Of a stretch of 64,000 nt of DNA, positions 50,792 through 63,789 are shown piece after piece (positions within the stretch are counted from its first letter, which is position 1; each line of letters begins with the position of its first letter). The position numbers were made by a program, and so were the translations under genes. This stretch comes from Bacteroidota bacterium (lineage in GTDB: Bacteria > Bacteroidota > Bacteroidia > Chitinophagales > Chitinophagaceae), in the NCBI GenBank assembly GCA_947448725.1, contig CANFOM010000002.1, positions 1 through 64,000 of the forward strand, written 5' to 3'. Under the pieces are notes generated by a model that worked only from the letters and a program-made list of their open reading frames with translations, was not told the origin of the DNA and did not search any database.

Positions 50792-50822
50792 TTGGGTAAT
50801 TTATAAAAGGGTTGTAAATTTG
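50792..50822 (+). promoter_or_regulatory. Promoter of the his operon
   Basis: TTG at 50792 and TAAATTTG at 50815-50822, separated by 20 bases, match the Bacteroidota -33/-7 promoter. The leader ATG begins only 4 bases after the -7 element. Confidence 0.7.
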
Positions 50823-50826
50823 CGCT

Positions 50827-50877
50827 ATGATAATAAAAAGCCATACACATCATTTTCATTTGCTCTACAAGGGGTAA
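50827..50877 (+). CDS. hisL: Histidine operon leader peptide (attenuator)
   Basis: A 16-residue ORF, too short for the ORF track. It reads M-I-I-K-S, then HTHHFH, then LLYKG and TAA. Four His codons occur within six positions. It lies directly after the his promoter and before a terminator, with hisG next. This fits transcription attenuation by ribosome stalling at His codons when charged tRNA-His is scarce. The start codon sits at the expected transcription start, so it has no room for a ribosome-binding site. Confidence 0.85.
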   Translation: MIIKSHTHHFHLLYKG

Positions 50878-50940
50878 GCTATGGGTGTAGGTATTATACT
50901 ATATTTAACCAAAGGGCTTACTAACAAGTAAGCCCTTTTT
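50874..50940 (+). promoter_or_regulatory. his attenuator: antiterminator and terminator
   Basis: The terminator has arms AAAGGGCTTAC (50911-50921) and GTAAGCCCTTT (50928-50938) with a 6-nt loop and a T tract. The competing arm GTAAGC (50874-50879) overlaps the leader stop codon TAA. It can pair with GCTTAC (50916-50921) of the terminator arm. A ribosome reaching the stop would cover the antiterminator arm and allow termination. A ribosome stalled on His codons (50842-50859) would leave it free. No separate region 1 pairing was noticed. Confidence 0.8.
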
Positions 50941-50997: not shown

Positions 50998-51852
50998 ATG
51001 CGTTTAAAGTTAGCTATTCAGAAATCGGGCCGATTGCATGATGATTCTATTAAGTTATTAAAAGAATCGGGAATTGATATTGGCAATGGGGTCAATAAAT
51101 TAAAAGCCGATGCGACCAATTTCCCATTGGAGTTATTCTTTTTAAGAGACGATGATATTCCACAATATGTGGAAGATGGGGTTGCGGATATAGGTTTTGT
51201 GGGAGAGAATGTGGTGTATGAAAAAGCCAAAAAAGTAGAAGTAGCTTATGAATTGGGATTTGGAAAATGCAGATTGAGTTTTGCAGTTAAAAAAAGTGAA
51301 ACCTTTTCTGGGCCCAATTTTTTGTCTGGAAAAAAAATTGCAACCAGTTATCCAGTGCTGGTGCAAGATTATTTGGATAAGCATAAAATCAAAGCCGAAA
51401 TTCATGAAATTAGTGGTAGTGTTGAAATTGCACCTGGTATTGGACTGGCCGATGTGATATGTGATTTAGTAAGTAGCGGCTCTACTTTATTTATGAATGG
51501 GTTAAAAGAAGCTGAAACTATTTTAAATTCTCAAGCGGTGTTAATTAAAAGACCCGCCTTGGATAAAGAAGCTGCACAAATATTGGAGCGCTTGTTATTT
51601 AGAATTGAATCGGTAAAAAAGGCAAAGAGAAATAAATATGTTTTATTAAATGCACCCAATGCCAATTTGGATAAAATTATTTCCTTATTACCTGGTATGA
51701 AAAGCCCTACGGTAATTGCATTAGCTACGCCAGGTTGGAGTAGTGTACACAGTGTTATTGACGAAAGTGATTTTTGGGAAATTATTGAACAATTAAAATT
51801 GGCTGGAGCCGAAGGAATTTTAGTAGTGCCCATTGAAAAAATGATTTTGTAA
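50998..51852 (+). CDS. hisG: ATP phosphoribosyltransferase (long form)
   Basis: First and committed step of histidine synthesis, joining ATP and PRPP. 284 aa, long HisG with a C-terminal ACT-like regulatory domain (about 215-284), which normally gives feedback inhibition by histidine. MRLKLAIQKSGRLHDDSIKLLKESG, DDIPQYVEDGVADIGFVGENVV (about 51-72), and GSVEIAPGIGLADVICDLVSSGSTL (about 140-165), the PRPP-binding region, are clear. It follows the attenuator by 57 bp and overlaps hisD by one base (TAATG). Confidence 0.96.
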   Translation: MRLKLAIQKSGRLHDDSIKLLKESGIDIGNGVNKLKADATNFPLELFFLRDDDIPQYVEDGVADIGFVGENVVYEKAKKVEVAYELGFGKCRLSFAVKKSETFSGPNFLSGKKIATSYPVLVQDYLDKHKIKAEIHEISGSVEIAPGIGLADVICDLVSSGSTLFMNGLKEAETILNSQAVLIKRPALDKEAAQILERLLFRIESVKKAKRNKYVLLNAPNANLDKIISLLPGMKSPTVIALATPGWSSVHSVIDESDFWEIIEQLKLAGAEGILVVPIEKMIL

Positions 51853-53147
51853 TGATTAAAATTTACAATGAACCGCTTGCGAAGGACTGGCCCATTTTAT
51901 TGGCAAGGCCAGTGATGGATGCATCTCAATTATTGCCTCAAGTTCAATTGATACTCAATGAAGTGCAAAACAAGGGAGATGAGGCATTAAGACAATTTAC
52001 TTTAGCCCTAGATAAAATAAGTTTAAAAGAATTTAAATTAAGTGCAGCTCAAATGGCTGCTGCTGAAAACGAATTAGCTCCAAGTTTAAAAACAGCCATA
52101 CAGTTGGCAAAAGTAAACATTGAAGTATTTCATCAAAGTCAAATTCAACAAGTAGAAAGAATTGAAACCATGCCTGGAGTGTGGTGTTGGAGAAAATCGG
52201 TAGGGATAGAAAAAGTGGGCATTTATATTCCTGGTGGCTCTGCTCCTTTATTTTCAACCGTTTTAATGTTGGGCGTTCCAGCAAAAATGGCTGGCTGCAA
52301 AGAAATTATTTTATGTTCTCCACCCAATGAATCGGGAACCCTTCATCCTGCAATTATTTATGCGGCTTCTTTGGTGGGGGTCACCTCTATTTATACCATA
52401 GGTGGTGCTCAAGCCATTGCAGCCATGGCTTATGGAACAGCGACCATTCCTAAAGTCAATAAAATATTTGGTCCAGGAAATCAATATGTCACAGCAGCCA
52501 AACAGTTGGTGCAACAAGCAGGCGTTGCTATTGATATGCCAGCAGGGCCGAGTGAGGTTTGTGTATGGGCAGATGAAACTTGTATTGCTTCTTTTGTGGC
52601 AGCCGATTTATTATCGCAAGCAGAACATGGCGCAGACAGTCAAGTGTTGTTAATAGCTAGTTCAACAGAGATTGTTGAAGCAGTTCAAAAAGAATTGGAG
52701 CAGCAATTAAATGTATTACCAAGAAAAGATTTAGCGGAAAAGGCATTAAAAAATTCAAAGGCGATGGTGTTAAATAATGTAGAAGCGGCCATTGCCTGTA
52801 TCAACGAATATGCGCCAGAGCATTTAATATTATCCATTGACAACGCAGCGCAACTGGCAGATAAAATTATCAATGCAGGATCCATTTTCATTGGCAACTA
52901 CTCGCCAGAATCTGTAGGAGATTATGCTAGTGGCACCAACCATACCTTACCCACCAATGGGTTTGCCAAAGCATATAGTGGCGTGAGTTTGGATAGCTTT
53001 GTTAAAAAAATAACCTTCCAACAAATTACAGAAAGAGGGTTGGCTAATATTGCACCCACCGTCATTGAAATGGCTGAGGCAGAAGGTTTGAAGGCGCATA
53101 GCAATGCAGTAGGAATTAGATTAAAATGGTTGGCTTCAAAAATATAA
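51852..53147 (+). CDS. hisD: Histidinol dehydrogenase
   Basis: Last two steps of histidine synthesis, a four-electron NAD-dependent oxidation. 431 aa. GVYIPGGSAPLFSTVLM-like segment (about 115), FGPGNQYVTAAKQLVQQAGVAIDMPAGPSEVCVWADE (about 205-240), QAEHGADSQVLL (about 257), and YASGTNHTLPTNGFAKAYSGVSLDSF (about 358-383) are all HisD hallmarks, including the zinc-site His/Asp residues. It starts on the last base of hisG, so translational coupling is likely. Confidence 0.97.
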   Translation: MIKIYNEPLAKDWPILLARPVMDASQLLPQVQLILNEVQNKGDEALRQFTLALDKISLKEFKLSAAQMAAAENELAPSLKTAIQLAKVNIEVFHQSQIQQVERIETMPGVWCWRKSVGIEKVGIYIPGGSAPLFSTVLMLGVPAKMAGCKEIILCSPPNESGTLHPAIIYAASLVGVTSIYTIGGAQAIAAMAYGTATIPKVNKIFGPGNQYVTAAKQLVQQAGVAIDMPAGPSEVCVWADETCIASFVAADLLSQAEHGADSQVLLIASSTEIVEAVQKELEQQLNVLPRKDLAEKALKNSKAMVLNNVEAAIACINEYAPEHLILSIDNAAQLADKIINAGSIFIGNYSPESVGDYASGTNHTLPTNGFAKAYSGVSLDSFVKKITFQQITERGLANIAPTVIEMAEAEGLKAHSNAVGIRLKWLASKI

Positions 53148-53150
53148 GTT

Positions 53151-54221
53151 ATGAATTTTGATATCAAAAAAATAGTAAGACCTAACATTGAAATATTGAA
53201 AGCGTATTCTTCTGCAAAAGATGAGTATACTGGTGAAGCCAATGTATTATTAGATGCCAATGAAAATAGTTTAGGGTCTCCCTTGACCAAATGGTACAAT
53301 AGGTATCCAGATCCTTATCAGAAAAAAGTAAAAGAAAAATTAGCTTTTATAAAACAAATCAAAGCGGAACAAATTTTCTTAGGCAATGGAAGTGACGAGT
53401 GTATTGATATTTTATTTCGCACTTTTTGTGAACCAGGCAAAGACAATATTATTATTTGTCCGCCTACCTATCCCATGTATGAAGTAGGCGCTAATATTAA
53501 TAGTATTGAAATAAAATCGGCACCGCTTTTACCTAATTTCCAATTGAATGTGGCGCATATCGAACAATTGGTGAACGAACAAACAAAAATAATTTGGATT
53601 TGCTCTCCTAATAATCCAACAGGTAATTCATTGGATAGGATAGACATTGAAACAATACTGAATCACTTTAATGGTTTAGTGGTAGTGGATGAGGCGTATA
53701 TCAATTTTTCTAAGCAAAAATCATTTGCGCAATCATTAATTGACTATCCCAATTTAGTCGTCTTACAAACATTAAGCAAAGCTTGGGGTTTGGCAGGGCT
53801 AAGATTAGGCATGTGTTTTGCAAGTGATGCGATTGTAAAGTATATGAACAAAGTAAAAGCACCTTATAATATTAGTATGGTCACACAGGAATTGGCCTTG
53901 ACGGCATTAGAGGAAGTAGGTCAAGTTAATGATATGATTGCCCATTTGGTGGATATGCGTATTGCACTTGCGGCAGTGATCGAAACTATGCCTTTTGTGG
54001 AAAAGGTATACCCGTCTGACACCAATTTTATACTGGTCAAAATTCCTAAAGCCACCGAATTGTATCGCTATTTATTAACGCAAGGGATTGTGGTGAGAGA
54101 CCGTTCTAGCCTTGAAAATTGCAGCGATAGCTTAAGAATTACGATTGGGACCGAACAGGAAAATACAGCTTTGGTAGACGCCATGGCCAAATGGATCGAG
54201 TTTACTTTTGCAAATGACTGA
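53151..54221 (+). CDS. hisC: Histidinol-phosphate aminotransferase
   Basis: PLP-dependent fold-type I aminotransferase for histidinol phosphate. 356 aa. NENSLGSP (about 39), FLGNGSDECIDILFRTFCEPG (about 75-95), PNNPTGN (about 154), VVDEAYINF (about 180), and the PLP-Lys in LQTLSKAWGLAGLRLG (about 205-219). It begins 3 bases after hisD. The next gene is not a his gene: the operon is broken here by a periplasmic dehydrogenase and cytochrome. Confidence 0.96.
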   Translation: MNFDIKKIVRPNIEILKAYSSAKDEYTGEANVLLDANENSLGSPLTKWYNRYPDPYQKKVKEKLAFIKQIKAEQIFLGNGSDECIDILFRTFCEPGKDNIIICPPTYPMYEVGANINSIEIKSAPLLPNFQLNVAHIEQLVNEQTKIIWICSPNNPTGNSLDRIDIETILNHFNGLVVVDEAYINFSKQKSFAQSLIDYPNLVVLQTLSKAWGLAGLRLGMCFASDAIVKYMNKVKAPYNISMVTQELALTALEEVGQVNDMIAHLVDMRIALAAVIETMPFVEKVYPSDTNFILVKIPKATELYRYLLTQGIVVRDRSSLENCSDSLRITIGTEQENTALVDAMAKWIEFTFAND

Positions 54222-54282
54222 TTTTAGAGAAAATTTATTAAATTACACACTCATCAATTTTTAAATTAAACAATTGTAATAT

Positions 54283-55539
54283 ATGAAAAAAGGTTTATCA
54301 ATTTTAAGTTTATTCTTATTGGTGCTATCCATTGTGGGTAAAGCACAAGAAAATGCAGGATTAAGATTACCTGCTGGTTTTAAAGCAAGTTTGTTTGCTG
54401 ATAATATTGGAAGCGCAAGACATATTACTATTACCAAATCAGGAGTAGTTTTTGCAAAGTTGAGTAACCCAAATAAGGAGGGGAATGCTATTATAAGATT
54501 AGAGGATGCGAATCATGATGGAGTAGCAGATAATATTACTGGATGGGGTAAATATGGTGGAACAGGTATTTACGTAAAAGGAAATAGTTTATATGCTAGT
54601 TCTAATGAAGCAATTTTTAAGTATGAACTAAATAGCAAAGATGAAGTGGTTAATCCATCGAATCCAGTAACGGTGGTAAGTGGTCTTATTAATCGCAGAC
54701 AACACGAGTCCAAATCAATCACTTTTGACAAAGGGAATAATGTTTATGTAAATATTGGAGCTTACTCTAATTCATGTCAGACCAAAGATAGAACCCCAGG
54801 TTCTCAAGGAATGATGCCTTGTCCTATTTTAGATTCAGCTGGTGGAATTTGGAAGTTTGACGGAACCAAAGAAAATCAAACTTATAAGGATGGTAAAAGA
54901 TATGCTACTGGCTTAAGAAATGTAATTGGTTTGGACTGGAATACCGAAACAAATCAATTATTTGTAATGCAACATGGACGCGATCAGTTAAATACTTTGT
55001 TCCCTAATTTATACAATGATTCATTAAATGCAGAACTACCAGCTGAAACATTTTATGCGATCAATGAAGGGGATAATGCAGGATGGCCTTATGTATATTA
55101 CGATCCAAGTCAACATAAAAAAATTGTTGCTCCAGAATATGGTGGTGACGGTAAAAAGGAAGGCGCTAAAGAATATAAGGATCCTGCGGTAGCTTTCCCT
55201 GCGCATATGGCACCTATGGGTGTATTGTTTTATACTGGCACTCAATTTCCTGAGAAGTATAAAAATGGTGCGTTTATTACTTTTCATGGCTCATGGAATA
55301 GAGCTCCACTACCACAAGAAGGTTTTTTTGTAGCTTTTGTTCCATTTAAAAATGGCAAGGCAACTGGTGAGTGGGAAATTTTTGCGAACGGATTTGGAGG
55401 TAATGCAGAGGGTGTTAAAGTAATCAATACGGGAAAAGCAAAAGCTAGACCAGTAGGATTAGCACAAGGACCAGACGGTTCAATTTATGTAAGTGATGAT
55501 ACGAAAGGTGCTATTTTCAAAATCAGTTACAATAAATAA
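54283..55539 (+). CDS. Sorbosone dehydrogenase-like PQQ-type beta-propeller oxidoreductase, periplasmic
   Basis: 418 aa with signal peptide MKKGLSILSLFLLVLSIVGKAQ. LPAGFKASLFADNIGSARHI (about 28-47) and the propeller blades GVFAKLSN, GWGKYGGTGIYVKGNSLYASSNEAIFKY, NVYVNIGAYSNSCQTKDRTPGSQGMMPCP, GRYATGLRNVIGLDWNTETNQLFVMQHGRDQL and GPDGSIYVSDDTKGAIFKISY match the soluble aldose/L-sorbosone dehydrogenase group that usually uses pyrroloquinoline quinone. It lies 61 bp after hisC with no visible terminator. The adjacent cytochrome c is a natural electron acceptor. The sugar oxidised is unknown. Confidence 0.85.
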   Translation: MKKGLSILSLFLLVLSIVGKAQENAGLRLPAGFKASLFADNIGSARHITITKSGVVFAKLSNPNKEGNAIIRLEDANHDGVADNITGWGKYGGTGIYVKGNSLYASSNEAIFKYELNSKDEVVNPSNPVTVVSGLINRRQHESKSITFDKGNNVYVNIGAYSNSCQTKDRTPGSQGMMPCPILDSAGGIWKFDGTKENQTYKDGKRYATGLRNVIGLDWNTETNQLFVMQHGRDQLNTLFPNLYNDSLNAELPAETFYAINEGDNAGWPYVYYDPSQHKKIVAPEYGGDGKKEGAKEYKDPAVAFPAHMAPMGVLFYTGTQFPEKYKNGAFITFHGSWNRAPLPQEGFFVAFVPFKNGKATGEWEIFANGFGGNAEGVKVINTGKAKARPVGLAQGPDGSIYVSDDTKGAIFKISYNK

Positions 55540-55584
55540 TTTTTATAAGAGCTTAACCATAAAACAATAAAGTGTAATTAAATA

Positions 55585-56010
55585 ATGGGAAATAAAGTAG
55601 AAAGATTTTTTAAAATAGGGTGCTTTTGTATCATGATGATAAGCGCTCTTAATGTAGGAGCCCAAAATTTAATCAACGGCAAAAAAATATTTGAAACAAG
55701 GTGTTTGGCTTGTCATCAATCAGATGGCGGAGGTGTTCCTAATATGAACCCGCCACTAGATGGCTCCACCAACGTGAATGGAAAAGATATTGCAAGAATG
55801 GTGAAGATTATTCAAAATGGATATGATGAGCGTGTTGCATTAGATGGTATGTATTACAATAATGCGATGATTGCCATGCCAGATTTAAAGGAAGATGCTA
55901 TTGCAGATGTGTTAAGTTATATTAGAAATAGTTGGTCCAATAAAGCAGGGTTGGTGACTTTAGCAGAAGTGAAAAAGTCAATTAGTAAAAACAAGGTCAA
56001 CAAAAAGTAA
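55585..56010 (+). CDS. Periplasmic c-type cytochrome
   Basis: 141 aa with a signal peptide (to about 26, ending NVGAQ). A single haem site CLACHQ (about 39-44) is followed by GGGVPNMNPPLDGSTNV (about 47-63) and an axial Met in the NNAMIAMPDL segment (about 94-103). Class I cytochrome c. It is placed 45 bp after the PQQ-type dehydrogenase and probably accepts its electrons. It is followed by hisB after 28 bp, so it lies inside the his operon. Confidence 0.88.
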   Translation: MGNKVERFFKIGCFCIMMISALNVGAQNLINGKKIFETRCLACHQSDGGGVPNMNPPLDGSTNVNGKDIARMVKIIQNGYDERVALDGMYYNNAMIAMPDLKEDAIADVLSYIRNSWSNKAGLVTLAEVKKSISKNKVNKK

Positions 56011-56038
56011 TTAAGTTTTCAAAAGAACAATTAAAAAA

Positions 56039-57169
56039 ATGCGACCTATTTTATTTATAGACAGAGATGGGGTTATTTTAGAAGAACCAACAACTGATTT
56101 TCAAATTGATGCGATAGAAAAAACGAGTTTTGTTGCAGGCGCTATTACCCATTTACAAAAAATTGCATCGGAATTAGGCTATTATAAAGTAATGGTCACT
56201 AATCAGGATGGCTTAGGTACAGCGGCTTATCCTTTAGAACAGTTTGAGCCTTTTCAACAATTAATGCTTAGGACTTTGTCTGGTGAAGGCTTTGTATTTG
56301 ATGAAATTCATATTGACGCTACTTTTGCAAAAGATAATGCGCCCACTCGTAAACCAGGCATAGGGCTAGTAAAGCATTTAGTAAACAATAAAGAATTTGA
56401 TATAGCTAACTCTTATGTAATTGGAGATAGATGGAGTGATATTCAATTGGCGAAAAATTTAGGATGCAAGGCTATTTATCTTACTACTCAAAATCATAGC
56501 CTTTCTGCGGATCAAGAAAAAGAGTTAAGAAGCAGCATTGCTTTTGAAACCGATAGTTGGGCTGCTATTTATTCTTTTTTAAAATTGGGATTGCGAAAAG
56601 TAAAGCATGAGCGCAATACCAAAGAAACAAAAATCAGTATCGATCTAAATATGGATGGGAAGGGTTTAGCTAATATTCATACAGGACTTGGCTTTTTTGA
56701 CCACATGTTGGAGCAAATTGCAAGACATGGATCCATTGATTTAGCGATACAATGCGATGGCGATTTGCATATTGATGAGCACCATACTATTGAAGATGTG
56801 GGCTTGGCTTTGGGCGAAGCTTTTGCTAAAGGACTAAGCGATAAAAGAGGAATGGAACGTTACGGATATGCTTTACCTATGGACGAAGCAGAAGCTAAAG
56901 TGTTGATTGATTTTGGAGGACGTAATTGGATTGTTTGGGATGCTAGTTTTACTAGAGAAAAGGTAGGAGAAATGCCTACAGAAATGTTTTTCCATTTTTT
57001 CAAATCTTTCAGCGACGCCGCTAAATGCAATTTGAATATTAGTTGTCAGGGGGAGAATGAACACCATAAAATAGAGGCTATTTTTAAAGCTTTTGCCAAA
57101 GCCATTAAAATGGCCGTTAGACGTAATCCAGCTAGTGACCAATTGCCAAGTACCAAAGGGGTTTTGTAA
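56039..57169 (+). CDS. hisB: Bifunctional histidinol-phosphatase / imidazoleglycerol-phosphate dehydratase
   Basis: 376-aa fusion catalysing two steps of histidine synthesis. The N-terminal HAD-type phosphatase domain (about 1-165) begins FIDRDGVIL with the DxD nucleophile pair and has TNQDGLG and GDRWSDIQLAKNLG. The C-terminal dehydratase (about 180-376) has HTGLGFFDHMLEQIARHG and DEHHTIEDVGLALGEA with the metal-binding His residues. This arrangement is usual in Bacteroidota and enterics. The gene after it is not hisH, but a trp leader and operon. Confidence 0.96.
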   Translation: MRPILFIDRDGVILEEPTTDFQIDAIEKTSFVAGAITHLQKIASELGYYKVMVTNQDGLGTAAYPLEQFEPFQQLMLRTLSGEGFVFDEIHIDATFAKDNAPTRKPGIGLVKHLVNNKEFDIANSYVIGDRWSDIQLAKNLGCKAIYLTTQNHSLSADQEKELRSSIAFETDSWAAIYSFLKLGLRKVKHERNTKETKISIDLNMDGKGLANIHTGLGFFDHMLEQIARHGSIDLAIQCDGDLHIDEHHTIEDVGLALGEAFAKGLSDKRGMERYGYALPMDEAEAKVLIDFGGRNWIVWDASFTREKVGEMPTEMFFHFFKSFSDAAKCNLNISCQGENEHHKIEAIFKAFAKAIKMAVRRNPASDQLPSTKGVL

Positions 57170-57216
57170 GGCCTAACGGCTGATAGTATCCTGGATAATA
57201 TCCTAGAATAGGTTTA

Positions 57217-57248
57217 TTTGGTAGAAAAAGCCCATTTCCTTAAATTTG
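57217..57248 (+). promoter_or_regulatory. Promoter of the trp operon
   Basis: TTTG (57217-57220) and TAAATTTG (57241-57248), separated by 20 bases: the same spacing and the same -7 sequence as the his promoter. The leader ATG follows 7 bases later. Confidence 0.75.
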
Positions 57249-57255
57249 CCATAGA

Positions 57256-57312
57256 ATGAAACAAACAAACAATATATGGTGGTGGCATACAAAATCCGTT
57301 AGGGTATTGTAG
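57256..57312 (+). CDS. trpL: Tryptophan operon leader peptide (attenuator)
   Basis: An 18-residue ORF below the track limit. It begins MKQTNNI, continues WWW at codons 8-10, then HTKSVRVL and TAG. Three consecutive Trp codons in an 18-codon reading frame just before a terminator and trpE mark a classical Trp leader peptide. There is no visible ribosome-binding site. The ATG is 7 bases after the -7 element. Confidence 0.92.
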   Translation: MKQTNNIWWWHTKSVRVL

Positions 57313-57373
57313 TGACATAACTATATTGTCAAATTATACATCAACCCTAACAGCAATGTTGGGGTTTGTTTTT
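57298..57373 (+). promoter_or_regulatory. trp attenuator: antiterminator and terminator
   Basis: Terminator: ACCCTAACA and TGTTGGGGT arms (about 57343-57366, one G-T pair) closed by a GCAA tetraloop and followed by TTTGTTTTTTT. Antiterminator: GTTAGGGT (57298-57305), inside leader codons 15-17, pairs with ACCCTAAC (57344-57351) and is extended by TGTA/TACA and TGACA/TGTCA pairs. The two structures share the ACCCTAAC arm and exclude each other. A ribosome at the TAG would block the antiterminator arm. One stalled on the Trp codons 12 bases upstream would not. Confidence 0.85.
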
Positions 57374-57399
57374 TTAACGAAAGATCGAAGAATAGAAAG

Positions 57400-58812
57400 A
57401 TGCAAAAAATTAATATTACGACTACTGTCACCAAAATGTTGGCAGACACATTTACACCCGTAGGGATTTATCTCCGTTTAAGAGATCGATTCAGGGATAC
57501 TATTTTATTAGAAAGCACCGATTCGCATGCTTCTGAAAATAGTTATTCGTTTATTGGGGTAAATGCGATTGGAGGAATTGAAATTTCTTCCTTCAATGAA
57601 ATCGAATACAAGTATCCCAATCAAGAGCCAGAGAAAGAACTGATAAAGGATGTACATGCTGCACCGGATCGTATTTGGTCTTATATGCAACAATATGAGA
57701 TGAATGGTGCTGAAGTAAAAGAAGCTGCTTTTGCTCAAGGCTTGTATGGCTATACGGCCTATGATGCTATTCCTTTTTTTGACACCATTCAATTTAAAGA
57801 AGGAGCGCCTTTGATTCCATTAATGCGCTATAGGTTGTATCAATATGTAATTGCTTTTAATCATTTTAAAGATGAAATTTTTATTTGCGAGAATCAATTA
57901 GCAGGAATTGTTTCAGAACACGAAGCGCTGGTATCGTTTATTAAAAGTAAGGATGTACCTCAATATCCTTTTTCGCTTCAAGGCGGAGAAACTTCCAATT
58001 TAACCGATGATCAGTATCGAGAAGCTGTAAAAAAAGGCATTCAACATTGTATGCGTGGTGATGTATTTCAAATAGTGTTAAGTAGACGTTTCCAACAAAG
58101 TTTTCAAGGAGACGAATTCAATGTATACCGAACTTTAAGAAATATCAATCCATCCCCTTATTTATTTTTCTTTGATTATGGAGATTATAAATTAATGGGT
58201 TCTTCCCCCGAAGCGCAAATCATTATCAAAAATGGGAAAGCAGTGGTGCATCCTATTGCAGGTACTTTTAAACGAAGTGGGGATGAAGCCACTGATATTG
58301 TCATGACACAAAAACTACTCGATGATCCAAAAGAAAATGCAGAGCATGTAATGTTGGTGGATTTGGCAAGAAATGATTTAAGTAGGGTATGTACGGAAGT
58401 AAAAGTAAAACAATACCGTCAGGTACATTATTATAGTCATGTAATTCATTTAGTAAGTGAGGTAGAGGGCAAAGTAGCCAAGGGGTCAAATCCTTTTCAA
58501 TTGGTTTCAAAAACTTTTCCAGCGGGCACTTTAAGTGGAGCGCCTAAATTTAAAGCCATGCAATTGATTGATTCGATAGAGCCCACTAAGCGATCTTATT
58601 ATGGAGGTTGCATTGGTTTTGTAGGATTTGATGGCTCTTGCAATCAAGCGATCATGATTCGTACTTTTTTGAGTAAGCAAAATACGCTTACCTATCAAGC
58701 GGGTGCAGGAGTAGTAGCAGCCAGTATTCCTGAAAATGAATTGCAGGAAGTGAATAATAAATTAAACGCATTAAAGACTGCTATGGTATTGGCAGAGAAA
58801 CTTCATCAATAG
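57400..58812 (+). CDS. trpE: Anthranilate synthase component I
   Basis: Converts chorismate to anthranilate with ammonia from TrpG. 470 aa. LLESTDSHASENSYSFIG (about 44-61) is the tryptophan feedback-binding region. The chorismate-binding core has GDVFQIVLSRRF (about 224), SPYLFFFDYGDYKLMGSSPE (about 250), HPIAGTFKRSGDE (about 284), LVDLARNDLSRVC (about 322), FPAGTLSGAPKFKAMQLID (about 374), and the C-terminal YQAGAGVVAAS. It is the first gene after the trp attenuator. Confidence 0.96.
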   Translation: MQKINITTTVTKMLADTFTPVGIYLRLRDRFRDTILLESTDSHASENSYSFIGVNAIGGIEISSFNEIEYKYPNQEPEKELIKDVHAAPDRIWSYMQQYEMNGAEVKEAAFAQGLYGYTAYDAIPFFDTIQFKEGAPLIPLMRYRLYQYVIAFNHFKDEIFICENQLAGIVSEHEALVSFIKSKDVPQYPFSLQGGETSNLTDDQYREAVKKGIQHCMRGDVFQIVLSRRFQQSFQGDEFNVYRTLRNINPSPYLFFFDYGDYKLMGSSPEAQIIIKNGKAVVHPIAGTFKRSGDEATDIVMTQKLLDDPKENAEHVMLVDLARNDLSRVCTEVKVKQYRQVHYYSHVIHLVSEVEGKVAKGSNPFQLVSKTFPAGTLSGAPKFKAMQLIDSIEPTKRSYYGGCIGFVGFDGSCNQAIMIRTFLSKQNTLTYQAGAGVVAASIPENELQEVNNKLNALKTAMVLAEKLHQ

Positions 58813-58830
58813 AAATAGAAAATGGAAAAA

Positions 58831-59400
58831 ATGAAAATATTGGTATTTGATAATTATGATTCTTTCACTTATAATTTAGTGCAATTGATAAAAGAAATTG
58901 CCCCTAAAGCGACTGTGGAAGTTTTTCGTAATGATGAAATTTCATTGGATAAAGTAAAGGGGTACGATAAAATTTTATTATCTCCTGGTCCAGGCTTGCC
59001 ATCGGAATCGGGCTTGTTATTGCCATTAATTAAAGAGTATGCAGCTACTAAATCTATTTTTGGTGTTTGCTTGGGGCAACAAGCGATAGGAGAAACTTTT
59101 GGCGGTAAGCTTACCAACTTAGCGCAGGTGTATCATGGTATTGCCACCCCAATCAATATAACTGCTAGCTCGGATTTGTTTGAAGGGTTGCCTGCTCAAT
59201 TTGAAGTAGGTCGTTATCATAGTTGGGTTGTAGATGAAAAAGATTTTCCAGCAGACTTAACAATCACTTCCAAGGATGACAAAGGGTATATCATGTCATT
59301 AGAACATAAAACCTATGATGTTAAAGGAGTGCAATTTCATCCGGAAAGTGTTTTAACACCTAACGGAGCAAAAATTTTAACAAACTGGTTAAAGAAATAA
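58831..59400 (+). CDS. trpG: Anthranilate synthase component II (glutamine amidotransferase)
   Basis: Supplies ammonia from glutamine to TrpE. The class I GATase triad is visible: FGVCLGQQAIGE with the Cys (about 79), and VQFHPESVLTP with His/Glu (about 168). The start MKILVFDNYDSFTYNLVQLI is typical, which is why I use the ATG at 58831 rather than 58822. It could also be shared with PabB. Close after trpE and 2 bases before trpD. Confidence 0.95.
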   Translation: MKILVFDNYDSFTYNLVQLIKEIAPKATVEVFRNDEISLDKVKGYDKILLSPGPGLPSESGLLLPLIKEYAATKSIFGVCLGQQAIGETFGGKLTNLAQVYHGIATPINITASSDLFEGLPAQFEVGRYHSWVVDEKDFPADLTITSKDDKGYIMSLEHKTYDVKGVQFHPESVLTPNGAKILTNWLKK

Positions 59401-59402
59401 AG

Positions 59403-60395
59403 ATGAAAAAATTATTACAATATTTATTTGAGCATAAAACTTTAAGTCGCGAACAAGCGAAGGAGGTGCTTGTTCAAATATCTCAAGGGGTATACAACGA
59501 ACATGAAATCACCTCCTTTGTGACGGTGTATTTAATGCGCAGTATTACCATTGATGAATTAATGGGTTTTAGAGATGCTTTATTGTCTTTGGCAGTAAAA
59601 GTGAATATTGGTGTTGAAAATACCATTGATATTGTAGGAACAGGTGGGGACGGCAAAGACACTTTTAATATATCTACTTTGGCTTGTTTTATAGTAGCCG
59701 GGGCAGGACAGCCTGTCGTAAAACATGGTAATTACGGTGCTTCTAGCGTAAGCGGTGCTTCTAATGTGATGGAGCAATTGGGATATCAATTTAAAAATGA
59801 AGAAGCGGCTTTGTCCAAAGAAGTAAAAGAAGCAGGTATTTGTTTTTTACATGCACCATTATTTCACCCGGCATTAAAAACGGTAGGGCCTATCCGAAGA
59901 AATATTGGGGTACGTACGTTTTTTAATATGCTAGGTCCTATTGTAAATCCAGCACAGCCAAGGTATCAATTAATTGGGGTCTATAATTTAGAAATGGCCA
60001 GAATATACAATTATGTATTACAAAATTTAGGGAAAGATTTTACACTGATACATAGTTTGGATGGTTATGATGAAATTGCACTTACTACCGATACTAAAGT
60101 AATTACCAATAAAGGAGAATACATTATGACGCCTTATCAATTAGGGAAGAAAAAAGTATTTAGCGAAGAATTGCATGGAGGTAAAACAGTGGAAGAAGCG
60201 GCAAGCATCTTTAAAAATATTATTCAAGGCAAAGGTACTTGGTCGCAAAATGCAGTGGTATTATCCAATGCAGCCATGGCTTTATTTGTGACAGGACAAT
60301 ATGAAAATTACGACTTGGCTTTTCAGGCAGCAGTAAAAAGTTTAGAATCGGGGGCTGCCAATAATAGTTTACAAAAATTAATTAGTTTACAATGA
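59403..60395 (+). CDS. trpD: Anthranilate phosphoribosyltransferase
   Basis: Joins anthranilate and PRPP. 330 aa. An N-terminal helical domain is followed by the PRPP site GTGGDGKDTFNIST (about 80-93), VKHGNYGASSVSGASNVMEQLG (about 107-128), and FFNMLGPIVNPA (about 178). Its last 4 bases overlap trpC (ATGA), indicating translational coupling. Confidence 0.96.
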   Translation: MKKLLQYLFEHKTLSREQAKEVLVQISQGVYNEHEITSFVTVYLMRSITIDELMGFRDALLSLAVKVNIGVENTIDIVGTGGDGKDTFNISTLACFIVAGAGQPVVKHGNYGASSVSGASNVMEQLGYQFKNEEAALSKEVKEAGICFLHAPLFHPALKTVGPIRRNIGVRTFFNMLGPIVNPAQPRYQLIGVYNLEMARIYNYVLQNLGKDFTLIHSLDGYDEIALTTDTKVITNKGEYIMTPYQLGKKKVFSEELHGGKTVEEAASIFKNIIQGKGTWSQNAVVLSNAAMALFVTGQYENYDLAFQAAVKSLESGAANNSLQKLISLQ

Positions 60396-61195
60396 GCACG
60401 AATATTTTAGCAACTATTGTTGCTCAAAAATTTATCGAAGTTGCTGCACGAAAAAAGCAAATAAGCATCGCTCAACTAGAACTTATGCCGCTGTTTGCTC
60501 AAAAATCATTTTCATTAAAATCAAATTTATTAGATCCTTCCAAAACCAATATCATTGCCGAATTTAAAAGAAAGTCTCCTTCTAAAGGAGTGATCAATGA
60601 TTCTACAAGCGTTCTGGAAGTAACAAATGCCTATGCGCAATTTGGAGCAGCCGGGATTTCTGTATTAACCGATAAAGATTTTTTTGGAGGCAGTTTGGAT
60701 GATTTAGCCATCGCCGTAAAAAACGAAGTACCTGTTTTAAGAAAAGAGTTTATTATAGACGAGTTTCAAATTATTGAAGCAAAAGCCTATGGGGCTTCGG
60801 TCATTTTATTAATAGCCAGTTGCTTAACTCCTGCAGTAACCGAATTATTAGCTGGTACCGCTAAGGAATTAGGCATGGAAGTATTGTTAGAGCTTCACGA
60901 TGAAACCGAGCTAGGTCATATCTGTGATGAAGTAGATTTCGTAGGCATCAACAATAGAAGCTTGAAATCTTTCGAAGTAAACATTGAACATTCTTTACAA
61001 TTAAGAAGTCAATTACCCAAGAGTAAATTAAGTATTGCAGAAAGCGGTATTTATGATTTAGCTACCTATCAGCTTTTGAAGCAGGAAGGATTTGATGGAT
61101 TTTTAATGGGAGAATATTTTATGAAACAGGCTAGTCCAGCAAAAGCGTTTGAAGTATTTGCAAGCGCCATTAAAACCGGAAAGGATGCAGCGTAA
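60392..61195 (+). CDS. trpC: Indole-3-glycerol phosphate synthase
   Basis: Ring closure of CdRP to indole-3-glycerol phosphate. 267 aa TIM barrel, monofunctional. IIAEFKRKSPSKGVIND (about 51-67) with the catalytic Lys, VLTDKDFFGGS (about 93), VLRKEFIIDEFQI (about 111), VGINNRSLKSFEV (about 186) and IAESGIY (about 217). Its 3' end overlaps trpF by 11 bases. Confidence 0.96.
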   Translation: MSTNILATIVAQKFIEVAARKKQISIAQLELMPLFAQKSFSLKSNLLDPSKTNIIAEFKRKSPSKGVINDSTSVLEVTNAYAQFGAAGISVLTDKDFFGGSLDDLAIAVKNEVPVLRKEFIIDEFQIIEAKAYGASVILLIASCLTPAVTELLAGTAKELGMEVLLELHDETELGHICDEVDFVGINNRSLKSFEVNIEHSLQLRSQLPKSKLSIAESGIYDLATYQLLKQEGFDGFLMGEYFMKQASPAKAFEVFASAIKTGKDAA

Positions 61196-61811
61196 AGTAT
61201 GTGGCATCACCCAATTAGAGCAAGCCCAAGCAATAGATGCCATGGGGGTTAATTATATTGGGTTCATTTTTTATCCTGGGTCTAAGAGATATGTATTGTC
61301 TGCAATGACATTGGAGCAATTGGCTACTTTTAAACCAGTGCATGCAAAAAAAGTTGGCGTATTTGTGAATGAGTCATTTGAGCAGGTGGTAGAAATTGTA
61401 AAAAAAGCAGGATTGGATATGGCACAATTGCATGGAGATGAAACGGCAGCTTATTGCGATCGTTTGAATCAAATTGTACCCGTCATTAAAGTGTTTAGAA
61501 TAGGCAAAGCTTTACCTGATTATGCTTCTTATGATAAGGCAGCAGCATATTATTTGTTTGACACAGATAGTGTATTATATGGTGGAACAGGACAACACTT
61601 TAATTGGGAGTTGATAAAAAATGAAAATTTCAATAAGCCCTATTTTTTAAGCGGAGGTATTGGTATCAATGATGTGCAGGGGATTGAAGTGATGCGGAAG
61701 ACTAAGGCGGGGAAAGATTTGGCAGTGATAGACATCAATAGTCAATTTGAAATTAGTCCAGGGGTAAAAGATTTAGAAAAAATTAAAACATTTATAGATG
61801 CAATTATTTAG
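61185..61811 (+). CDS. trpF: Phosphoribosylanthranilate isomerase
   Basis: Amadori rearrangement of PRA to CdRP. From the ATG at 61185 (MQRKVCGITQLEQ) it is 208 aa and has the KVCGIT start with catalytic Cys, NYIGFIFYPGSKRYV (about 24-38), AQLHGDE (about 80), VIDINSQFEISPGVKD (about 179-194), and GGIGIND. The ORF-track start 12 codons earlier lies inside trpC and is less likely. A separate TrpF means that HisA need not be bifunctional. It overlaps trpB by 14 bases. Confidence 0.94.
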   Translation: MQRKVCGITQLEQAQAIDAMGVNYIGFIFYPGSKRYVLSAMTLEQLATFKPVHAKKVGVFVNESFEQVVEIVKKAGLDMAQLHGDETAAYCDRLNQIVPVIKVFRIGKALPDYASYDKAAAYYLFDTDSVLYGGTGQHFNWELIKNENFNKPYFLSGGIGINDVQGIEVMRKTKAGKDLAVIDINSQFEISPGVKDLEKIKTFIDAII

Positions 61812-62997
61812 TACAACTAACAATTATCAAAATCCTACAGAGGAAGGTTACTATGGTGAATTTGGCGGCGCCTACATTCCTGAAATGTTGTATGGGAATG
61901 TGGAAACCCTAAAAAATCAGTATTTGAAAATTGTGCAGGATCCTACTTTTCAAGCCGAGTTTCAACAACTATTAACTGACTATGTAGGAAGACCCACTCC
62001 ATTATTTTTAGCGGAGCGTTTAAGTAAAGAAATTGGTGCCACTATTTATTTAAAAAGAGAAGACTTATGTCATACTGGGGCACATAAAATTAATAATACG
62101 ATTGGGCAAATATTATTAGCACAACGTTTGGGAAAGAAAAAAATTATTGCTGAAACAGGCGCTGGGCAACATGGCGTGGCGACTGCTACTGTCTGTGCTT
62201 TAAAAGGAATGGAATGTGTGGTGTATATGGGAGAGAAAGATATTGAAAGGCAAGCGCCCAATGTAGCCCGTATGAAAATGTTAGGCGCTACGGTGATTCC
62301 TGCTGTTAGCGGTAGTAAAACTTTAAAAGATGCCACCAATGAAGCCATTCGTGCTTGGATTAATGAGCCTAACGAGACGCATTATATTATTGGAAGTGTG
62401 GTAGGACCGCATCCTTATCCAGATATGGTAGCCCGTTTTCAAAGTGTGATTAGTGAAGAAATAAGAAAGCAATTAAAAGAAAAAACCGGAACGGAGTTGC
62501 CCACCCATGTAGTGGCTTGTGTAGGTGGAGGTAGCAATGCTGCTGGGGCTTTTTATCATTTTTTAAATGAGCCTTCGGTGGAATTGGTAGCAGTAGAAGC
62601 AGCTGGCCATGGGGTAAATTCTGGTTTAAGCGCTGCCACTACTCAATTGGGTACGCATGGTATTTTGCATGGAAGTAAAAGTATTGTGATGCAAACCCAA
62701 GACGGCCAAGTTGTAGAACCACATAGTATTTCTGCAGGCTTAGATTATCCAGGCATTGGGCCACTTCATGCTTTTTTATATGAAAGCAAAAGGGGTACTT
62801 TTTTAAGTGCTACGGATGAAGAAGCATTGGCTTCGGCTTTTCACCTTTCTAAAATAGAAGGAATTATTCCCGCATTAGAAACCGCCCATGCATTTTCTGT
62901 CTTGCCAAAATTAAATTTAAAACCTACTGATGTAGTGGTGGTTTGTTTAAGTGGAAGAGGCGATAAAGATTTAGCCACTTACATGCAATATTTATAA
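61798..62997 (+). CDS. trpB: Tryptophan synthase beta chain
   Basis: PLP enzyme condensing indole and serine. 399 aa. GEFGGAYIPEML (about 20-31), LKREDLCHTGAHKINNTIGQ (about 85-104) with the PLP Lys, ETGAGQHGVATAT (about 115), GGGSNAAG (about 240) that binds the cofactor phosphate, and CLSGRGDKDL near the C-terminus. The partner TrpA follows 18 bp later. Subunits form an alpha2-beta2 complex with an indole tunnel. Confidence 0.97.
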   Translation: MQLFSTTNNYQNPTEEGYYGEFGGAYIPEMLYGNVETLKNQYLKIVQDPTFQAEFQQLLTDYVGRPTPLFLAERLSKEIGATIYLKREDLCHTGAHKINNTIGQILLAQRLGKKKIIAETGAGQHGVATATVCALKGMECVVYMGEKDIERQAPNVARMKMLGATVIPAVSGSKTLKDATNEAIRAWINEPNETHYIIGSVVGPHPYPDMVARFQSVISEEIRKQLKEKTGTELPTHVVACVGGGSNAAGAFYHFLNEPSVELVAVEAAGHGVNSGLSAATTQLGTHGILHGSKSIVMQTQDGQVVEPHSISAGLDYPGIGPLHAFLYESKRGTFLSATDEEALASAFHLSKIEGIIPALETAHAFSVLPKLNLKPTDVVVVCLSGRGDKDLATYMQYL

Positions 62998-63015
62998 AGC
63001 GTAAACAAAATTATT

Positions 63016-63789
63016 ATGTCAAGGTTAGAGTCATTATTTAAAGAAAAGAAAGATCGCGTTTTAAATGTATATTTTACTGCAGGCTATCCAACTTTAGATA
63101 GCACAGTTAAAGTAATGTCCAGTTTGCAAGCAGGTGGAGCCAATATTATTGAAATAGGTATGCCCTATAGTGATCCTCTAGCAGATGGAGAAGTGATACA
63201 AGCCAGTAGCATTAAGGCTTTGGCCAATGGAATGACCTTGACTGTTTTATTTGATCAATTGGCCAGCATGCGCAAAAGCATTCACATTCCAGTTATTCTA
63301 ATGGGTTATATGAATCCGATTTTACAATATGGGTTTGAAGCATTTTGCAAAAAAGCAAAAGAAGTAGGGGTGGATGGTTTAATTTTACCCGATTTGCCTT
63401 TATTTGAGTTTGAGCAATTCTATGGAAAAATAATTAATGACAATGGGTTAGATTTTATCTTTTTAGTTACGCCAGAAACACCTGCGGAAAGAATTAAAAA
63501 ATTAGATAGTTTAAGTGCTGGTTTTTTATATGCAGTAAGTTCCTCTGCAACAACAGGTAAGGATAAGGATTTCTTAAAAGTAGCTACTTATTTAAAAGGC
63601 TTACAAGCGATGCAATTAAAAAATCCAATTTTAGTGGGGTTTGGCATTAAGGACAAAAACACTTTTGATGCGGCTACTGCTTATACCCATGGGGCCATTA
63701 TTGGTTCTGCTTATATTCAAGTATTATCCAAAGGCGGCGATATAGATCAAAGTACAAGGCTGTTTTTAAATGGGGTACTTGGTGCTTAG
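63016..63789 (+). CDS. trpA: Tryptophan synthase alpha chain
   Basis: Cleaves indole-3-glycerol phosphate and hands indole to TrpB. 257 aa TIM barrel. VYFTAGYPTLDST (about 19-31), IIEIGMPYSDPLADGEVIQASSIKAL (about 46-71) with catalytic Glu and Asp, GLILPDLPLFE (about 127), and VGFGIKDKNTF (about 214). Last trp gene; hisH follows 24 bp later without any terminator seen. Confidence 0.96.
   Translation: MSRLESLFKEKKDRVLNVYFTAGYPTLDSTVKVMSSLQAGGANIIEIGMPYSDPLADGEVIQASSIKALANGMTLTVLFDQLASMRKSIHIPVILMGYMNPILQYGFEAFCKKAKEVGVDGLILPDLPLFEFEQFYGKIINDNGLDFIFLVTPETPAERIKKLDSLSAGFLYAVSSSATTGKDKDFLKVATYLKGLQAMQLKNPILVGFGIKDKNTFDAATAYTHGAIIGSAYIQVLSKGGDIDQSTRLFLNGVLGA

Follow-up and report, generated by a model that had tools for sequence, protein, structure and literature searches.

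The trp attenuator of E. coli (trpL, RF00513) combines consecutive Trp codons, alternative 1:2, 2:3 and 3:4 pairings and a U-tract terminator, and trpE is the first gene behind it. Within the Bacteroidota, a cis-regulatory RNA named Bacteroid-trp (RF01692) has been described (Weinberg et al., 2010; PMC2864571), and leader-peptide attenuation before amino-acid operons was proposed in Flavobacterium psychrophilum from transcriptome data (PMC9723704); in that species the conserved Bacteroid-trp element has been likened in the literature to its E. coli counterpart. Streptomyces lividans TrpL1 (MFAHSTRNWWWTAHPAAH, likewise with WWW) and Sinorhizobium meliloti rnTrpL/peTrpL, both from other phyla, are Trp leader ORFs at the mRNA 5' end, and their transcript starts have been mapped (PMC8079986; PMC7298713). 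With these precedents, leaderless trp leader ORFs are not new to biology.

Here, we analyze a leader that shares the listed elements of the E. coli system. All the structural features of an E. coli-type trp attenuator that could be tested (tandem-Trp ORF, terminator, antiterminator and 1:2 hairpin) are present. Unlike the E. coli leader, it has a Bacteroidota-type promoter, an ORF predicted to be near-leaderless and a WWW run placed just before strand 1, and the search for TrpR gave no match. In common with the S. lividans and S. meliloti leaders, its ORF would stand at the 5' end of the mRNA, although its transcript start is predicted from the promoter. The window, as we call the whole 64,000-nucleotide stretch of DNA analyzed, belongs to a Chitinophagaceae genome of Sediminibacterium type, whose nearest named TrpE is 97% identical and comes from a MAG labelled Sediminibacterium ginsengisoli. 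NCBIfam matches of seven ORFs verified the gene order trpEGDCFBA, and the promoter, the leader ORF and the terminator lie between the end of hisB (57169) and the start of trpE. With high confidence, the element is a transcription attenuator of the classical ribosome-mediated kind, with charged tRNA-Trp as the sensed signal.

Table 1. Positions of the trp leader elements, the trp operon and the his leader in the window.
Feature	Position	Strand	Details
Bacteroidota-type promoter	57217..57248	+	-33 TTTG 57217-57220; 20-nt spacer; -7 box TAAATTTG 57241-57248
Leader ORF trpL	57256..57312	+	18 codons, MKQTNNIWWWHTKSVRVL and stop; ATG 57256; three TGG codons 57277-57285; stop TAG 57310-57312; read from the sequence and from the WWW leader in relatives
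1:2 hairpin	57288..57311	+	strand 1 57288-57297 with strand 2 57302-57311
2:3 antiterminator	57298..57351	+	57298-57305/57344-57351; 57308-57311/57337-57340; 57313-57317/57327-57331
3:4 intrinsic terminator	57343..57375	+	stem 57343-57352/57357-57366; GCAA loop 57353-57356; T7 57369-57375
Regulated operon trpEGDCFBA	57400..63789	+	NCBIfam matches, seven ORFs
His attenuator before hisG (50998)	50815-50940		box TAAATTTG 50815-50822; leader ORF 50827-50877; terminator near 50911-50940

The 18-codon ORF and its run of three Trp codons, already recognized in a first-pass annotation of this DNA, can be read directly and go beyond chance expectation: the 64 kb contain TGGTGGTGG a single time, in frame within trpL, where 0.23 occurrences are expected. 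A WWW leader precedes trpE in 77/77 named relatives with enough upstream sequence, the other three of the 80 contigs in that set ending 45-117 nt before trpE. The region upstream of trpE was also read in same-genus and same-order genomes, a set that overlaps the named contigs because some genomes are the same. Members of other families in the order have a recognizable leader with different flanking residues (MVKNNFWWWNGKRF, MNFTFVHTNNWWWPRPSPTCRVR and MKFRTTKNWWWACETS). A His codon (CAT, window positions 57286-57288) follows WWW in 123 of the 129 loci of the family and borders on the 1:2 hairpin at its base. It was considered as a marker of his-operon adjacency and discarded, since WWWH is kept where a simple pattern did not detect hisB immediately upstream.

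Three alternative helices can be drawn in the leader RNA. The antiterminator pairings proposed earlier hold on inspection, since GTTAGGGT is the exact reverse complement of ACCCTAAC and the inner helices are TGTA/TACA and TGACA/TGTCA. The terminator with its GCAA loop and T tract is likewise found in the window as described; the tetraloop itself was dropped as a conserved feature because loops differ among relatives. Folding energies are -16.5 kcal/mol for 2:3 (shuffle z -3.6) and -13.2 kcal/mol for 3:4 (z -3.3), and both hairpins require 57344-57351, so that they are mutually exclusive. The whole leader has a shuffle z of -3.9, and its full fold, which contains the terminator, reaches -34.3. 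Thermodynamic folding, one of the checks suggested with the first-pass annotation, bears the model out, with z values from -3.3 to -4.5 across the three helices. Among 22 terminator-like matches between 49 and 64 kb, the trp terminator has the longest stem.

Conservation of these pairings was assessed in a covariation alignment of 31 leaders. The 3:4 helix is paired in 98.7% of alignment cells and 2:3 in 84.7%, and when each leader was folded separately an antiterminator hairpin was obtained in 31/31. Covariance across relatives, a second suggested check, came out in part: the 3:4 score was matched by 0/500 shuffles, but the 2:3 score alone was reached by 124/500, because the register of distant relatives is shifted by one. 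Compared with its nearest sister leaders, the subclade of the window has strands 2, 3 and 4 altered together (strand 2 from GTTGGGGT to GTTAGGGT, strand 3 from ACCCCGAC to ACCCTAAC and strand 4 from GTCGGGGT to GTTGGGGT); paired changes of this kind go back to a small number of inherited events, each seen in several sequences, and not to many independent ones. A covariance model built from the 31 leaders matches in 79/299 genomes of the order, spread over 44/140 genera, matches for which the trpE neighbor was checked in part only and some of which may be other attenuators. Both the Trp codons and the alternative pairings, on whose persistence in relatives the original reading had been staked, are retained, and that reading stands.

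What does not stand is the simpler design attached to it. The first-pass annotation pictured the attenuator as minimal, lacking any obvious pause hairpin. In such a device 1:2 would have no function, strand 2 would be hidden solely by the ribosome at the stop codon, and a leader left untranslated would allow read-through into the operon. We consider this design unlikely. A 1:2 hairpin, overlooked at that stage, forms by the pairing UACAA-A-AUCC/GGGU-A-UUGUA with -7.8 kcal/mol and a shuffle z of -4.5, and it is largely conserved, with 90.3% of cells paired in the 31 leaders against 38-57% in slid registers. It is mutually exclusive with 2:3, as in attenuators of the E. coli type. In a few distant relatives the hairpin is weak (-3.1 in L028, while L030 favors another fold), and it may matter less there. 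An untranslated leader is predicted to terminate, E. coli-like, because the free RNA, taken through the last base of strand 3, favors the 1:2-containing fold (-19.0) over 2:3 (-16.5), and because the terminator is part of the fold of the full leader. Control of trpEGDCFBA through charged tRNA-Trp, the other part of the annotation's interpretation, finds strong support in conservation and in the exclusive pairings.

Ribosome-mediated attenuation at this locus would proceed as follows. Transcription would begin about 3 nt ahead of the leader ATG. Under shortage of Trp-tRNA the ribosome would stall on WWW and mask strand 1, the 2:3 antiterminator would form, and RNA polymerase would continue into trpEGDCFBA. 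With ample Trp, the ribosome would reach the stop codon and mask strands 1 and 2, allowing 3:4 to form and transcription to terminate. If the leader were not translated, 1:2 would form and 3:4 would likewise terminate. Whichever of the three Trp codons it stalls on, a ribosome of usual footprint covers the RNA to about 57290-57296; strand 1 would then be hidden to a large extent or entirely, and the antiterminator strand from 57298 left free. At the stop codon it covers to about 57322, and strands 1 and 2 would be hidden. This geometry is what attenuation needs.

A terminator/antiterminator pair taken by itself fits any sensor. A different Trp sensor could govern the same hairpins, be it a tryptophan riboswitch, a T-box or a protein that binds RNA (TRAP, for instance), and the ORF would then be incidental. 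This is very improbable. The WWW codons are kept in frame in all relatives, neither a T-box nor any other RNA family scored above threshold, and neither TRAP nor TrpR gave a match in searches of the genome. It is scarcely credible that the small ORF arose by chance and that the hairpin simply terminates the his operon lying upstream: a scan of the interval between hisB and the trp promoter gave no terminator match, so that his read-through would reach this one, but the WWW leader is retained also where hisB is not recognized directly upstream, the promoter box between hisB and the leader is conserved, and so are the alternative pairings. Of the 129 WWW loci scanned, at least 74 have hisB immediately before the leader, and in the window the scan found no terminator in between, so that his transcripts may enter the trp attenuator.

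Existing Rfam models do not recover the element. RF00513 (Trp_leader, gathering threshold 41 bits) gave no match in the window and 27.3 bits in the relative L027, and RF01692 (gathering threshold 49 bits) had no match in the window, in 12 relatives or in the genome. Permissive scans returned only sub-threshold matches to unrelated families (MicC, sroB and snoRNAs, with rnk_pseudo in relatives), which were set aside. RF01692 is, like the element studied here, a cis-regulatory RNA of Bacteroidota, and in its matches elsewhere in the class a terminator follows a Trp-rich leader ORF; with Bacteroid-trp, other Bacteroidota therefore probably use the same strategy of regulation. At the one RF01692 locus inspected, the pairing layout is seemingly different from that of the window and the ATG lies further from the promoter box. 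Ahead of trpE, classical trp attenuation seems to be general in this large family of Bacteroidota, which the Rfam models miss.

The promoter coordinates of the first-pass annotation are correct and can be read directly in the sequence, but what they imply for the transcript had gone unnoticed. At mapped flavobacterial promoters the -7 box spans -12 to -5 (PMC9723704; PMC6847099), and by this spacing we place the putative trp transcription start at about 57253, leaving a near-absent 5' UTR. The trp -7 box is conserved among relatives. Its gap to the leader ATG is 4-9 nt in 77/104 trp leaders, and exactly 7 nt in 54 of those 77; some boxes among the remaining leaders were misassigned by the simple pattern used, and one subclade has a genuine gap of about 16-23 nt. 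Such a box was found within 120 nt of 7/22 larger genes of the window, a small sample in which all gaps were at least 14 nt. Leaderless mRNAs make up 5.5% in F. psychrophilum (PMC9723704), and in Bacteroides thetaiotaomicron 3.7% of 5' UTRs are shorter than 10 nt. Among the mapped mRNAs of these two species, very short 5' UTRs are rare, at about 4-6%.

The trp leader has a counterpart 6.4 kb upstream, ahead of hisG. A His-rich leader ORF (MIIKSHTHHFHLLYKG and stop) begins 4 nt after its box, and a competing antiterminator fold (-17.2) opposes a terminator of -17.0. All other examined loci with an identified start (19/19) have a His-rich leader before hisG, and the gap is 4-8 nt wherever the box was recognized. 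Elsewhere in the genome, beyond the window, a Phe/Tyr-rich leader (MKANINNWFYFFFYFYFNQSSRVVFVKA; L134, G000:C2:93011-93159) starts 7 nt after a TATCTTTG box and is followed by a terminator and then by a pheA-like gene that resembles, as judged by eye, a prephenate dehydratase. Whether Chitinophagaceae consistently build their trp, his and phe attenuators on leader ORFs that are leaderless or nearly so is, in our judgment, an evenly balanced question. If they do, the first ribosome could load once RNA polymerase clears the promoter. To our knowledge, Shine-Dalgarno sequences are not used in the phylum Bacteroidota, and the trp and his leaders together would offer a clean case for studying translation-transcription coupling on near-leaderless ORFs without them. 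We found no published account of near-leaderless amino-acid leaders in Chitinophagaceae, mainly in the open literature, and a literature search for attenuation in Chitinophaga gave no match.

Reading the regions before ilvD and before the two best aspartokinase matches of the genome revealed no comparable leader, and the other R1 matches of the genome, apart from the pheA leader, looked like ordinary terminators. A leuA-family match outside the window (L185, G000:C20:13820-14962) aligns to profile positions 1-382 of 494, scores below the cut-off, has one internal TAA and is perhaps a shorter homologue. Within the window, the his cluster adjoins the trp operon, the two together occupying 50998-63789. 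Two non-his ORFs lie in the same direction between hisC and hisB, at 54283-55539 (418 aa) and 55585-56010 (141 aa), and the latter carries a CLACH c-type haem motif.
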